From Halobacteriovorax marinus SJ (GTDB lineage Bacteria > Bdellovibrionota > Bacteriovoracia > Bacteriovoracales > Bacteriovoracaceae), in the NCBI RefSeq assembly GCF_000210915.2, contig NC_016620.1, forward strand, positions 2,046,001-2,110,000: a stretch of DNA of 64,000 bases, written 5' to 3'. Position 1 is the stretch's first letter, and the number at the start of each line of letters is the position of its first letter. The notes beneath the pieces are model-generated. The model searched no databases. It was not told where the DNA came from and worked only from the letters and a program-made list of their open reading frames with translations. The translations under genes and the position numbers were made by a program. Positions 8,153-13,886 of the stretch are shown one piece after another.

Positions 8153-9444
8153 TGTCCAAAGAACTTAAAGATTTACTACTTAATTTACACACCAGAGGAA
8201 GGAGGTATAGTTACTATCCCTCTCTTCCTGACTGGAATGGAGATTATGATAAAGTAGAAATCATTAAGTCTCTAAGCTTAAAAAAAATAAATCTCTATAT
8301 ACACATTCCCTTTTGTGCATCACTCTGCACCTTCTGTGGCTGTAATATAAAAGTCACAAGAAGTAGTGATCAGTTTCAAAGCTATATAGAAAAAATTCTT
8401 GAAGAGTGGAAACTCTATAAAGAAGAGTATCCACAAATTGAATTGGCATCTATTTATCTGGGAGGAGGAACACCAACTTATCTGACTCTAGATAATATCA
8501 AGTATCTTATCGACAATATTCTAGAGGGAACAAAGTGTGATCAAACTTTTTTTGGAACAATAGAGACTGATCCGCGCCTTCTTCAAGTTGAGAAGTTAAA
8601 ATATTTGAGTAGTGTGGGCTTTAATGCACTTAGCATTGGTGTTCAAGACACAAATACAGAGACATTAGCGAATGTGAATAGACACCAGAGTTTTGATCAA
8701 GTTAGAGCACTTGTAAATTGTGCAAGAGAGAATGGTTTTTCAGAGATTAACTTAGACCTTATCTACGGTCTTCCCTTTCAAACACTCAAGAGTTTTGAAA
8801 AGTCATTAAACGATGTTCTAACTTTGAAACCGGAGCGTATCGCTAATTACCCTTTAGCTAAAGTACCTTGGCAAATGGACTTACAGAATGCTCTTGGAAT
8901 ATATCGCCCACTAGGAACTGAGGATATGTATGACCTTTATATTCATAGTGACGAGATTCTAAAAAGTAATGGCCACAGACTTCTGGGAATGGGTCACTAT
9001 AGTAATCAAGAAAAGCATTATAATAGAAATATAACGGGCTATACTAGCGCTCTCAATGCTCCACTTATAGCACTAGGAACTTCATCAATTTCAAATACAG
9101 ATCAATATCTTTTTCAAAATGATAAAATTCTAGAGAAGTATCATCAGTATCCAAATAGAATAGTCACTTCTCACAAAAAGAAAAAAAATGAAGTTATACT
9201 AGAGTCCATCTTTCAAGACATCAATTGTAATGGGACTTTTTCACTCTTAGATCTTCACAATCACCACACTGTAAATAGTAATGAACAAAAGAGTGAAACC
9301 CTAATAAGACATATGAATATGCTCATTGAATATAAGATTCTCGAGCACAAGAACGACGTTTATAAGATTACTGAACTAGGAAAACATTTCAATAAAACTA
9401 TATGTCAGAGCATTGAAAAGGCCCACTCTTCGCCGCAAAATTAA
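8152..9444 (+). CDS. hemN: oxygen-independent coproporphyrinogen III dehydrogenase (radical SAM)
   Basis: Radical SAM enzyme that oxidatively decarboxylates coproporphyrinogen III to protoporphyrinogen IX without oxygen. The cluster motif is HIPFCASLCTFCGCN with Cys55, Cys59 and Cys62 (plus Cys64, typical of true HemN). LGGGTPTYL and the C-terminal HemN helical domain follow. At 430 residues it is slightly short but complete. It starts inside the hemE stop and is the last gene of the heme operon. The last codons overlap an inverted repeat that belongs to the downstream duplicated unit. Confidence 0.93.
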   Translation: MSKELKDLLLNLHTRGRRYSYYPSLPDWNGDYDKVEIIKSLSLKKINLYIHIPFCASLCTFCGCNIKVTRSSDQFQSYIEKILEEWKLYKEEYPQIELASIYLGGGTPTYLTLDNIKYLIDNILEGTKCDQTFFGTIETDPRLLQVEKLKYLSSVGFNALSIGVQDTNTETLANVNRHQSFDQVRALVNCARENGFSEINLDLIYGLPFQTLKSFEKSLNDVLTLKPERIANYPLAKVPWQMDLQNALGIYRPLGTEDMYDLYIHSDEILKSNGHRLLGMGHYSNQEKHYNRNITGYTSALNAPLIALGTSSISNTDQYLFQNDKILEKYHQYPNRIVTSHKKKKNEVILESIFQDINCNGTFSLLDLHNHHTVNSNEQKSETLIRHMNMLIEYKILEHKNDVYKITELGKHFNKTICQSIEKAHSSPQN

Positions 9445-9454
9445 ACTCGGCGAA
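9429..9454. promoter_or_regulatory. inverted repeat A, copy 1
   Basis: TTCGCCG (9429-9435) and CGGCGAA (9448-9454) form a perfect 7-base dyad with a 12-base AT-rich spacer. It covers the last codons and stop of hemN and is centred about 199 bases before the downstream start, the same distance as in copy 2. It has no T-run, so it is not a plain terminator. Confidence 0.7.
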
Positions 9455-9493
9455 CTCCACTATCTTAACTCATGACTTTTTCATCTCCTCTCC

Positions 9494-9516
9494 TCGCCAC
9501 CTAAATCCACTGGCGA
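9494..9516. promoter_or_regulatory. inverted repeat B, copy 1
   Basis: TCGCCA (9494-9499) and TGGCGA (9511-9516) form a 6-base dyad centred 136 bases before the start codon. A TATAAA follows at once (9520-9525), so the dyad could be an operator over a promoter. The pairing register is one base shifted relative to copy 2. Confidence 0.6.
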
Positions 9517-9640
9517 AGTTATAAATCTATAGGCCATTTTTCGATTGAAAGATCATCTCCTCACCCATAAAACAGCCTCACAAAAACAAGAAGACATTTT
9601 TACAAACAATAACAACGTTATCTTTACAGGAGATTAAAAA

Positions 9641-10135
9641 ATGAAAAAATTATCAATGCTAGTACTTTCACTTCTTTCACTTTCTTCATTTGGTTACACT
9701 TATGTTGGAATGAATGTTCCTACAATGCTAATGGAAAACGGATTTGAATTTGAAAGCGTAAAAGTAACAAACATCTGTCAATTAGAAGACGGAAGCTTCA
9801 AGACAATTAAAAAAGCTACTAACAAGTGTGTTAAGTACTCTAGAAACTTCAGAAACGCATTTGAGTACAGAGAAGCTCAAAACGGTTGTTTAAGAACTGG
9901 AAGCCTACACCTTTTCGCAGCTGAGTCTAAGCCAACTTCATGGTGTGCTGAGTTTGGTAGAGATCACGATGGTGAGTACGGATGTATCAGAATTGGACGT
10001 GGATCAGAAGTTAGACCACTTACTTACACTGTTCAAAAAGTTAGATACAATACTAGAGGTGGACTTAACAATGAAACAAGAGTTATCGAAGAAGTTCTTG
10101 AGTCTTACACTCACACAATCCCAGCTTGTAACTAA
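9641..10135 (+). CDS. small Cys-rich secreted protein, copy 1
   Basis: A 164-residue protein of unknown family. Residues 1-18 are a clear signal peptide (MKKLSMLVLSLLSLSSFG). The mature part has six cysteines (NICQ, NKCV, NGCL, SWCA, YGCI, PACN), which could make three disulfides, and a tyrosine/arginine-rich middle. The ribosome site AGGAGA lies 7 bases before the ATG. Codon choice is strongly uniform and a strong terminator follows, both hinting at high expression. It differs from copy 2 by two residues (Asn25 and Glu32 here; Asp and Lys there). It is probably periplasmic or exported; no function can be assigned. Confidence 0.85.
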   Translation: MKKLSMLVLSLLSLSSFGYTYVGMNVPTMLMENGFEFESVKVTNICQLEDGSFKTIKKATNKCVKYSRNFRNAFEYREAQNGCLRTGSLHLFAAESKPTSWCAEFGRDHDGEYGCIRIGRGSEVRPLTYTVQKVRYNTRGGLNNETRVIEEVLESYTHTIPACN

Positions 10136-10165
10136 TTCTTAAGAATACTTACAATCATATAATAG

Positions 10166-10190
10166 GGCCGCAATTATTGCGGCCTTTTTT
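10166..10190 (+). terminator. rho-independent terminator, copy 1
   Basis: GGCCGCAA (10166-10173), a TTA loop, and TTGCGGCC (10177-10184) followed by six T. It lies about 30 bases behind the secreted-protein stop. Confidence 0.95.
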
Positions 10191-10419
10191 ATTTATCATA
10201 ATTTCATCTTCATTAATTCATTTTTTTAGTTTGCCAATTAATACTGCAAAACAACTCTTAAAAAAATTGTAATTCATTTACTTACTCATTCTTTCGAAAG
10301 CTTAAACAGAGCGTCTCTACAAAGTTACAAAAGAAAATAAGAATAAATTGTAATGACATTCTCTTCTTACTTTTAGAAAAAAATAAATTCAGAAGATAAA
10401 TATAAAAAAACCTCTAAGC
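10191..10419. other. AT-rich spacer between duplicated units, no gene seen
   Basis: Together with the regulatory part of copy 2, this makes a 495-base gene-free stretch (10136-10630). This portion is very AT-rich with short A and T runs. I see no reading frame with a ribosome site, no stable hairpin and no similarity to the segment before copy 1. Confidence 0.6.
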
Positions 10420-10444
10420 TTCGCCGCAAATATTTTACGGCGAA
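10420..10444. promoter_or_regulatory. inverted repeat A, copy 2
   Basis: TTCGCCG (10420-10426) and CGGCGAA (10438-10444) form a perfect 7-base dyad with an 11-base spacer, centred about 199 bases before the downstream start. The arms are identical to copy 1, while the flanking sequence is not. Confidence 0.7.
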
Positions 10445-10482
10445 TAAGAAATATGTAAGTAAGCAGTAATATCACATTAGTA

Positions 10483-10507
10483 TTCGCCGCTTAGTTTTAC
10501 TGGCGAA
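10483..10507. promoter_or_regulatory. inverted repeat B, copy 2
   Basis: TTCGCC (10483-10488) and GGCGAA (10502-10507) form a 6-base dyad centred 136 bases before the start. It is immediately followed by TATAAT, a possible -10. The left arm differs from copy 1, yet six paired bases remain. Confidence 0.6.
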
Positions 10508-10630
10508 GTTATAATTTTGTAGCTCATTTTTAGATTGAAAGATCGTCTCCTCACTCATAAAACATGCTCACAAAAACAAGAAGACATTTTTATAAACAAT
10601 AACAACGTTATCTTTACAGGAGATTAAAAA

Positions 10631-11125
10631 ATGAAAAAATTATCAATGCTAGTACTTTCACTTCTTTCACTTTCTTCATTTGGTTACACTTATGTTGGAA
10701 TGGATGTTCCTACAATGCTAATGAAAAACGGATTTGAATTTGAAAGCGTAAAAGTAACAAACATCTGTCAATTAGAAGACGGAAGCTTCAAGACAATTAA
10801 AAAAGCTACTAACAAGTGTGTTAAGTACTCTAGAAACTTCAGAAACGCATTTGAGTACAGAGAAGCTCAAAACGGTTGTTTAAGAACTGGAAGCCTACAC
10901 CTTTTCGCAGCTGAGTCTAAGCCAACTTCATGGTGTGCTGAGTTTGGTAGAGATCACGATGGTGAGTACGGATGTATCAGAATTGGACGTGGATCAGAAG
11001 TTAGACCACTTACTTACACTGTTCAAAAAGTTAGATACAACACTAGAGGTGGACTTAACAATGAAACAAGAGTTATCGAAGAAGTTCTTGAGTCTTACAC
11101 TCACACAATCCCAGCTTGTAACTAA
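10631..11125 (+). CDS. small Cys-rich secreted protein, copy 2
   Basis: Paralogue of the gene at 9641 with 162 of 164 residues identical (Asp25 and Lys32 here). It has the same signal peptide, six cysteines, ribosome site and terminator. About three base differences occur over the gene, far fewer than in the flanks, which suggests recent gene conversion or strong constraint on the coding DNA. It faces a regulator gene whose stop overlaps its terminator. Confidence 0.85.
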   Translation: MKKLSMLVLSLLSLSSFGYTYVGMDVPTMLMKNGFEFESVKVTNICQLEDGSFKTIKKATNKCVKYSRNFRNAFEYREAQNGCLRTGSLHLFAAESKPTSWCAEFGRDHDGEYGCIRIGRGSEVRPLTYTVQKVRYNTRGGLNNETRVIEEVLESYTHTIPACN

Positions 11126-11155: not shown

Positions 11156-11181
11156 GGCCGCAATTATTGCGGCCTTTTTTT
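11156..11181 (+). terminator. rho-independent terminator, copy 2
   Basis: Same hairpin as copy 1: GGCCGCAA (11156-11163), a TTA loop, TTGCGGCC (11167-11174), then seven T. The T-run overlaps the stop codon of the convergent regulator gene. Confidence 0.95.
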
Positions 11182-11914
11182 ATTTTAGAGAATCAATTGC
11201 AGAGAGAACAAAGAGAGGAATATCACCACGACTTTGTTCATCATTAAGAATAGAAATTATCTCTTTCAGAGCATTTTTTTGAACTTTATGGATCTTTTTA
11301 GCAGCATCACGATTAACAGATTCAGAAAGATTATAAAATAGATTTGGCACCTCAGTGTTCCCTTCAACTTTAATGAAGTCACTTACCGCCTTAAAGTTTC
11401 TCACAAAGTATTCATTTGAAACTTTAAATGTATTTAAATTAGAAGATATATTATCTCCGTCAACCTTAACTAAGTCATCACGCTTTAAATTTTCAAGAGC
11501 GCTAAGCCCCATCTGCCCAAAGAGTCTCTGAACTTCAGAAATAGTCGTACCACAGCTATTAGATGCCAGTTTAAAGACAAGATAGCTCGTCTGATCCGAT
11601 ACACTTTCATCTATAACTTTAATATCTATCTTCGATGAACCAGATGATAATAAGAACTCATTACTTAGGTATTCACTTAAACTTCCCTCACCTAAAGCCT
11701 CTCTAATCTCATAGAGATCAGTTGTCTTATAGATGTGGGAAAGTACCTTAAGTATGGTCTCATTCTTAGGAAGTCGCTTAAGTTCAGCTTTCTTAATTCT
11801 ACGCAAGCTCGTCTCTGGCACTTTCATATTTTGCGCCAGAGAATTGAGACTTAAGTAAGACTTGCTCTCAAGATAAGTATTAAGAATGTGAGATAGTTCT
11901 TTATTCTCTTCCAT
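11180..11914 (-). CDS. putative HTH transcriptional regulator of the TIGR02147/DUF4423 style
   Basis: A 244-residue soluble protein. The N-terminal 60 residues look like a helix-turn-helix (SLNSLAQNMKVPETSLRRIKKAE). The middle and C-terminal parts resemble the conserved region of the TIGR02147/DUF4423 regulators abundant in Bdellovibrio-like bacteria, ending in a conserved-looking DIPLFVLSAIDSL. Its start overlaps the stop of the upstream secreted-protein gene (TAATG), so it is coupled to it. It converges on copy 2 of the duplicated secreted gene. The family assignment is by pattern only. Confidence 0.6.
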   Translation of the reverse strand: MEENKELSHILNTYLESKSYLSLNSLAQNMKVPETSLRRIKKAELKRLPKNETILKVLSHIYKTTDLYEIREALGEGSLSEYLSNEFLLSSGSSKIDIKVIDESVSDQTSYLVFKLASNSCGTTISEVQRLFGQMGLSALENLKRDDLVKVDGDNISSNLNTFKVSNEYFVRNFKAVSDFIKVEGNTEVPNLFYNLSESVNRDAAKKIHKVQKNALKEIISILNDEQSRGDIPLFVLSAIDSLK

Positions 11915-12690
11915 TACTTCTTTGGTATAGTTACGTAAATACGGCTCTTGGACACTTTCTTATTTTCATAAAGAATCTTAGAGATAAAACTCTCCATCCC
12001 AAGAATGCGCTCTAACACACCTTGCTCAGGCCTAAATCTGCTAATATCACTAGCACTCATATTCATATTAATTCGAACACGACCGGCACCACCGCCACCA
12101 CTTTGCTCTCCTCCAATAACCTTTCCAGATAGATCGGACCAAGAATTAAAATCTGAGATCTCATAATCTCTAGAAATTTTACTAAAGTCAGAAACTAGGC
12201 TAACTCTATCTTTTTCAGCGTTATATCTTAAGAAGCGAGACATATTCTCCCACTTCTTCCAATTTTCAAGAGCTGTATCGTTTACACCGTAGTTCTTTAA
12301 ATTACCGTAGAAAATTGTCTCCACAGAGTTTGCTTCTTTTATGACTTCACTTTCTGGTGACAAACTTAAAAGAAGATTTATCTGACATTTACTGATTTCA
12401 TAATTTTCAAACTTTTGAGAGTGCCTATTATAGAAGTTATGTATACGAGGTATGAAGTCGTTCTTTACGAACTCAGTTCCATTTTCAAACTTAAGAATAG
12501 TCTTAGCATGTACAGGAACAATATTACTCAAATCTCGCGAGTTCTTTTCTCTAATATAGCCATTATCAAAGCAGAGTTTATCAACAGAGACTTGACCGTT
12601 AGGTAACTCAATAATTGGTAAATAAGCAAAACTTGAAGCACTGGTAATAGTTAGTGCGAAAGTGAAAGCTATAGAAAAGAAGCGATTCAT
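11914..12690 (-). CDS. secreted protein with Gly-rich linker, function unknown
   Basis: Start chosen at ATG 12690 (MNRFFS...), because GTAGG lies 5 bases before it and the signal peptide begins there; an in-frame GTG at 12708 would only add six residues. The 258-residue protein has a signal peptide of about 22 residues. It has a charged middle, and near residue 190 a glycine-rich stretch (SGGGGAG) separates a C-terminal 60-residue module. Its start region overlaps the end of the upstream small gene, and it shares TAATG with the regulator, so the three genes form one unit. Confidence 0.65.
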   Translation of the reverse strand: MNRFFSIAFTFALTITSASSFAYLPIIELPNGQVSVDKLCFDNGYIREKNSRDLSNIVPVHAKTILKFENGTEFVKNDFIPRIHNFYNRHSQKFENYEISKCQINLLLSLSPESEVIKEANSVETIFYGNLKNYGVNDTALENWKKWENMSRFLRYNAEKDRVSLVSDFSKISRDYEISDFNSWSDLSGKVIGGEQSGGGGAGRVRINMNMSASDISRFRPEQGVLERILGMESFISKILYENKKVSKSRIYVTIPKK

Positions 12691-12695
12691 AAAAC

Positions 12696-13037
12696 CTACT
12701 TTGTACACTCAAGGATATATGTTTTTCTGGCAGATACAGAAGATAGTCTCATTCTTCCATTTGAATCAAAATCACCCTTAAATAAGTTTCCATTTGTATA
12801 ATCTGGTCCAAGAGTGATCATTGCAATGATAGAGTCATCATGTTGAGTAACTGAATAATAAGCTTCATCTATATCTAAAGTGAGCTTAACTAATCCTGGT
12901 ATATTCTGATGAACTAGAGATTCTTTTGTAACCTTAACTTCAGTGCCGATTAATTCTCTTCTCTCTCCCGTGCACTCAATGGCAAATGAAGAAATAGAAG
13001 TGAGGAGTAAAAGAGAGGTAAGTCCCAGTAATTTCAT
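12696..13037 (-). CDS. small secreted protein, function unknown
   Basis: Start chosen at ATG 13037 with AAGGA upstream, which places a signal peptide (MKLLGLTSLLLLTSISSFA) at the N-terminus; a longer frame exists but its extra 23 residues do not look natural. The mature part is about 94 residues, with Cys in AIECTGE and ILECTK close to both ends, which could form one disulfide. It is the first gene of a three-gene minus-strand unit ending in a putative regulator. Confidence 0.6.
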   Translation of the reverse strand: MKLLGLTSLLLLTSISSFAIECTGERRELIGTEVKVTKESLVHQNIPGLVKLTLDIDEAYYSVTQHDDSIIAMITLGPDYTNGNLFKGDFDSNGRMRLSSVSARKTYILECTK

Positions 13038-13478: not shown

Positions 13479-13886
13479 TTATTGATTATCTAACTCAAAC
13501 TTAATTCTTCTAAAATTATCATTAGCACAAGATATGAAGCTGTATGAAAGCTCGTTCTGGTTGTAGTTTCCACAGTGTGGTAAATAAATTGAGCGGTTCA
13601 GCTCTCTGGCCAATCTGCTAAAGTTATTATTGATACAACTTACAAAAGAATAGCTCACAGTGTTTCCAAAGTTAGAGCAATAAGAAATATAGATTGGTGT
13701 ATCAAAATCTCTTCCAAGTGAATTAAAATTTGTATTCACACAGCTAGAGAAAGCATAGCTAACGGCTTGATTGCCATAAGAATAATTTGAACAGTAACTA
13801 ACATAAGACTTTTCACTAGACTCACTTGCTACTGCTGCTTGAGAGAGACCAAAAATAAGTAAAGTCGCTAAAAATAAACTCTTCAT
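13479..13886 (-). CDS. secreted protein made of three Cys-containing repeats
   Basis: A 135-residue protein with a signal peptide (about 1-20). The mature part is almost only three repeats of about 36 residues with the pattern YxSYCSN...VSYSFxSCxNxNFxRLxRE. Each repeat has two cysteines about 15-17 residues apart, so each could carry its own disulfide. I do not know the family. It is probably periplasmic or exported and stands as a single gene. Confidence 0.7.
   Translation of the reverse strand: MKSLFLATLLIFGLSQAAVASESSEKSYVSYCSNYSYGNQAVSYAFSSCVNTNFNSLGRDFDTPIYISYCSNFGNTVSYSFVSCINNNFSRLARELNRSIYLPHCGNYNQNELSYSFISCANDNFRRIKFELDNQ

Follow-up and report, generated by a model that had tools for sequence, protein, structure and literature searches.

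Class I activators of sigma70 promoters work with a CRP-type geometry, and looping repressors, too, make use of operators that are paired and phased. Among the C proteins of restriction-modification systems, C.Esp1396I is a local regulator with few targets, whose dimers occupy two dyads arranged in tandem ahead of a promoter. That paired palindromic operators can serve a local activator is known in principle, and the locus described here is ordinary in kind; the helix-turn-helix (HTH) regulator family and the operator proposed for it appear to be undescribed. A literature search found no description of a TTCGYCR-type operator and no operator defined for Halobacteriovorax and its relatives, in which gene regulation has been little mapped.

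The locus lies in a 64,000-nucleotide stretch of the genome of Halobacteriovorax marinus SJ, referred to here as the window. It contains two copies of a gene for a secreted protein, each preceded by two inverted repeats, dyads A and B (Table 1). We propose, with a probability of roughly 75%, that the dyads are DNA operators and that the HTH protein encoded nearby binds both of them on one face of the helix and activates the secreted gene.

Table 1. Positions of the features of the locus in the window, and related gene pairs in other loci
Feature	Position	Strand	Remarks
Dyad A, copy 1 (distal, predicted strong operator)	9429-9454	none	TTCGCCG-N12-CGGCGAA (= TTCGCC-N14-GGCGAA); kept before all orthologues
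Dyad B, copy 1 (predicted proximal operator)	9493-9517	none	CTCGCC-N13-GGCGAA
Predicted sigma70-like promoter, copy 1	9545-9573	+	TTGAAA (9545-9550) N17 TAAAAC (9568-9573)
Secreted Cys-containing 164-aa protein, copy 1 (proposed target gene)	9641-10135	+	conserved cysteines
Dyad A, copy 2	10420-10444	none	TTCGCCG-N11-CGGCGAA (= TTCGCC-N13-GGCGAA)
Dyad B, copy 2	10483-10507	none	TTCGCC-N13-GGCGAA
Predicted sigma70-like promoter, copy 2	10535-10563	+	TTGAAA (10535-10540) N17 TAAAAC (10558-10563)
Secreted Cys-containing 164-aa protein, copy 2 (proposed target gene)	10631-11125	+	492/495 bases identical to copy 1
HTH protein (proposed cognate activator)	11180-11914	-	XRE-like N-terminus and likely winged-helix segment 94-170
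Exported partner protein	11914-12708	-	gene overlaps HTH gene; co-conserved in all 7 genomes
HTH and exported-partner pairs	11914-12708 with 11180-11914 (window); L097, L098, L100-L102, L106-L112, L117		

Paired dyads before a duplicated secreted-protein gene

The earlier note on this DNA had placed the two dyads about 199 and 136 bases before both start codons, and the measured centres indeed lie at about -199 and -136 from both ATGs. The interval between A and B, which it had described as diverged beyond alignment, retains 11/38 identities over 38 bp and aligns no better than shuffled sequence. The hemN-like ORF upstream, with its stop at 9444, shares its final codons with copy 1 of dyad A. 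With up to one mismatch allowed, TTCGCC-N13-GGCGAA is matched three times in the window, against a mean of 0.04 in shuffled sequences, none of which (0/100) reached three.

When 9518-10135 is compared with 10508-11125, the coding parts are 99.4% identical and the proximal promoters 91% (11 bases differ in the 123 bp between B and the ATG), and the sequence upstream of B cannot be aligned. This combination suggests gene conversion, or a recent copy that became joined to an older regulatory region. The secreted protein matched no family in Pfam or NCBIfam, and its structure model has a pLDDT of 48. Further along the window, 13479-13886 on the minus strand encodes a predicted secreted protein of 135 aa that carries, in three internal repeats, a motif like YISYCSNF-SYSFxSCxNxNF.

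When a profile of the secreted protein was run against 129 genomes of the family, close orthologues came up in seven genomes of three genera (G000, G001, G003, G004, G013, G094 and G095), together with a handful of matches that are weak and distant. Protein identity to the window copy, computed for six genomes, runs from 99% down to 47%. Dyad A is present in all eight upstream regions of the seven genomes, with 0-1 mismatch and a spacer of 12-14. Dyad B is more degenerate than A; it was assigned in all seven gene-bearing genomes, but one of its arms is poor in G004, G013, G094 and G095, where B was placed partly by position, and the B of G094 overlaps an alternative inverted repeat (GTCACAAA/TTTGTGAC). 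The 32 half-sites give the consensus TTCGCCR, with C5 sometimes replaced by T, and the dyad takes the form TTCG(C/T)C(A/G)-N10-12-mirror, usually 25 bp long. Copy 1 of dyad B had been read as keeping its six pairs in a shifted register. This is literally true, given that TCGCCA and TGGCGA can pair, but the orthologues show a one-sided change of T to C within a fixed 25-bp frame.

The dyads are also restricted to this locus. In the 3.44-Mb host genome, TTCGCCG-N8-16-CGGCGAA occurs twice, both times here, and is not scattered. For the refined motif TTCGYCRN{10,12}YGRCGAA, all eight matches in the seven gene-bearing genomes fall at the locus, and three control genomes that lack the gene (G002, G060 and G015) contain none. 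A genome-wide regulon was considered and rejected: the off-locus one-mismatch matches to TTCGCC-N13-GGCGAA that were inspected in G000-G003 lie within ORFs, the sole exception being an intergenic match in G002, which has no secreted gene. The observation of paired dyads is confirmed, and much strengthened by the genome comparison.

Promoter geometry and the form of the dyads

A predicted sigma70-like promoter of the form TTGNNN-N17-TANNNN is found in 8/8 upstream regions. Measured from the centre of B, the TTG (-35) begins 40 bp away in copy 1, and the eight regions give 40, 40, 40, 40, 40, 49, 40 and 41 bp. With a tolerance of 1 bp, seven of the eight share one offset, where the maximum in 2000 shuffles was three; the sequences are kin, and this amounts to less than seven independent observations, although they span three genera. 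Another candidate promoter, which in copy 2 follows B immediately (GTTATAAT), is not conserved in G001, G003 or G095, and the TTG-N17-TA further down was therefore preferred. Transcription is predicted to start about 7 bp downstream of the -10 element, near 9579-9582 for copy 1, which leaves both dyads outside the predicted transcript. The locus has the palindrome upstream of -35, at a conserved distance, that is typical of a class I upstream operator.

The centres of A and B are separated by 63.5, 63, 64, 63, 43, 55, 40.5 and 42 bp, values near 4, 5 or 6 helical turns; 63-64 bp is found in most of genus g1, and the four shorter spacings elsewhere. On its own this phasing is suggestive but weak (five distinct values, p about 0.07).

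Departures from the consensus over the 16 dyads are all one-sided or pair-breaking. Compensatory double changes were seen in 0/16 dyads, and position 7 of the half-site is a purine in nearly every case, with no dependence between the two sides. Since the dyads precede the predicted transcript and change on one side, never in compensation, they are best taken as DNA operators and not as RNA. Of the alternatives raised in the earlier note, the operator pair is strongly supported, the dyads being kept in all orthologues, confined to the locus genome-wide and held at a constant spacing from a conserved promoter. An intrinsic terminator was also considered and rejected, as the loops of the dyads measure 13 nt and a T run is lacking; the region has its terminator-like site elsewhere, at 10164-10186.

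The neighboring HTH protein and rival readings

The earlier note had not picked out the neighboring HTH gene, whose product is the likely binder of the dyads. Close orthologues of the HTH protein (317-434 bits; next best 217) occur in exactly the 7/129 genomes that carry the secreted gene. The two genes adjoin in 7/7 despite differing gene order, being convergent in G000, G001, G003, G004 and G095 and co-directional in G013 and G094. Residues 1-80 of the HTH protein were modelled at pLDDT 80-91, and residues 1-81 match many XRE structures over about 74 residues at Z 7-8.3, middling values that lend moderate support; on the predicted structure, the N-terminal domain has the XRE fold. The window protein itself gave no HTH-family match above cut-off, while its homologue L098 passes PF01381 (26.7 vs 23) and PF13443 (24.2 vs 22). 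Searched as a profile against PDB sequences, the HTH protein gave nothing significant. HTH genes of this family often overlap or directly adjoin the gene of an exported partner, and such pairs recur across genera of Bacteriovoracaceae.

The half-site recurs beside distant HTH homologues. In their loci, TTCGYCR mirror pairs were matched 10 times against 0.05 expected, all in intergenic sequence; the matches come from overlapping loci, and nine of them, outside the orthogroup, reduce to five distinct sites in four genomes of other genera, the tenth being the G003 site itself. These dyads are 26 bp or 35-36 bp long, lengths that differ by about one helical turn. Moreover, a second module was found in G000 (L091; HTH2 locus at genome position 1470856), G089 (L165) and G090 (L166), where a 25-bp dyad sits between the gene for a divergent 142-aa secreted Cys protein and that for HTH2, a protein 26-30% identical to the window HTH protein. 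The G000 dyad of this module (TTCGCCACATTTTAAAAGTGATGAA) has the top score among 50 listed sites outside the main locus, under a scoring matrix built from relatives only, and the distance from dyad centre to -10 is 63-64 bp, equal to that of the main group. Of the arguments for recognition of the TTCGYCR dyad by the HTH family, and for a functional geometry, this independent recurrence is the strongest.

The link between HTH protein and dyad is not universal among the homologues. All homologues with dyads are among those with the recognition helix [SP]E-x-[ST]-[LM]RRI, while the GATTLRRI group has none, and no TTCGYCR-type dyad was found before the operons of the homologues in G036, G030, G110 and G111. 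Dyads were likewise looked for before the TIGR02147-linked paralogues L114 and L115, and none was found. A one-mismatch G010 match near an HTH gene (TTCGCCGGAACGACAATTTGGTGAA) falls inside the partner gene and was dropped.

Several individual sites were noted in passing. In G059, a 36-bp TTCGTCA dyad precedes a distant secreted Cys paralogue (L102 4505-4540) and a 26-bp one precedes the partner-HTH operon (L102 3809-3834). TTCGTCA dyads also lie upstream of secreted Cys-protein genes in G023 (L177 530-554), beside a divergent HTH-like gene, and in G010 (L174 1494-1517), with TATAAA 63 bp from the dyad centre. In G003, a perfect 25-bp palindrome, TCTGGAGTTAAAGTTTAACTCCAGA (L117 2914-2938), separates an exported-protein gene from the HTH gene that comes next; it has the length of the window dyads and a different sequence.

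In the mechanism that we favor, one dimer of the HTH protein would sit on each dyad, contacting the half-site TTCG(C/T)C(A/G), and the spacing of A and B would bring both dimers onto about one face of the helix. B would be centred about 75 bp, and A about 115-140 bp, before the predicted start. The bound protein would then recruit RNA polymerase to the sigma70-like promoter, whose -10 element is poor, and so turn on the secreted gene. A would be the strong site and B the weaker one, and binding is therefore probably cooperative. For the HTH protein, direct binding, cooperativity and activation rather than repression are what we infer from these patterns.

The main rival is that the same HTH protein represses, for instance through a loop that joins A and B and is released by a signal. 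Dyads placed 40-100 bp before the HTH protein's own operon in G089, G090, G010 and G059 would suit autorepression. At the secreted gene, however, both sites lie upstream of -35 at a fixed distance (B centre 40 bp) and leave the core promoter free, and the -10 elements (TAAAAC, TATATC) are poor, as for an activated promoter; we consider repression unlikely. Slightly less likely again is that an unrelated regulator encoded elsewhere binds the dyads and the HTH gene is a mere neighbor. Adjacent genes can be co-inherited without a regulatory tie, and some HTH homologues have no dyads nearby. The half-site nevertheless turns up next to distant HTH homologues in loci without the secreted gene. Beyond the orthogroup, exact dyads lie 2.5 kb or less from an HTH-family gene in 3 cases against 0.10 expected (two of the three in congeneric genomes), and a regulator dedicated to its own locus would fit the lack of any regulon elsewhere in the genome. 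Finally, the earlier note raised an "RNA switch" as one possibility; that the dyads form hairpins within the RNA of a 5' leader, whether as a stability element, a thermosensor or a riboswitch, is highly improbable: most A dyads could fold as hairpins of 5-9 pairs, but B of G003, G004 and G013 forms no stable hairpin and two more sites fold weakly, position 7 freely breaks pairing, a search of Rfam gave no match at the dyad region, and covarying helices inside the transcript, the mark of a cis-regulatory RNA, are absent from dyads that lie upstream of the conserved promoter.

Activation by the HTH protein, as favored here, gives regulator, half-site, geometry and target as one testable prediction, which extends to a whole uncharacterised HTH family adjoining secreted proteins. 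It also illustrates that a footprint seen in sequence only can lead to the cognate regulator via co-occurrence. A wider reading, which we hold tentatively and at less than even odds, is that Bacteriovoracaceae carry paralogous private modules, each made of an HTH regulator, in many cases an exported partner encoded by an overlapping gene, and a secreted Cys protein, in which every regulator would act on its own neighbor via a TTCGYCR dyad. If so, predatory bacteria would possess a family of self-contained secretion switches, and the exported partner might feed a signal back to the regulator.

Comparison with described systems

Like the RRNPP-type regulator ComR (5JUB), the HTH protein is a predicted cytoplasmic HTH regulator encoded beside the gene of an exported product. 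ComR is among its weak Foldseek matches (E about 0.2-0.3), with a TM of about 0.2 that gives no real structural support, and the exported partner here has 264 aa, in contrast with a short propeptide.

The TIGR02147 / DUF4423 proteins of Bdellovibrionota and Fibrobacter are of similar length and likewise combine an HTH with a following winged-helix-like domain. A true member, L114, also adjoins a distant paralogue of the secreted protein. The window protein, however, has no match to TIGR02147 or DUF4423 (PF14394), and its homologue L106 reaches DUF4423 at E 0.067 only.

The best structural matches of HTH residues 1-81 are C proteins (C.Esp1396I, 3CLC), with Z 7.8-8.3 and an rmsd of 2.7-2.9 over 74 residues, which may reflect only the common XRE fold. 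The proposed arrangement, dimers of a local regulator on two tandem dyads upstream of a promoter, is that of C.Esp1396I. Unlike C proteins, which have about 80 aa and no second domain, the window protein carries a second domain; the dyads are 40-64 bp apart, where C-protein operators are adjacent; and the neighbors of the HTH gene encode exported proteins and not a restriction system.

With class I activators of CRP type, the locus shares a palindrome about 75 bp before the predicted start, a fixed helical phase and a weak core promoter. It differs from them in protein family and half-site, and in the second, distal dyad that is always present at this locus.
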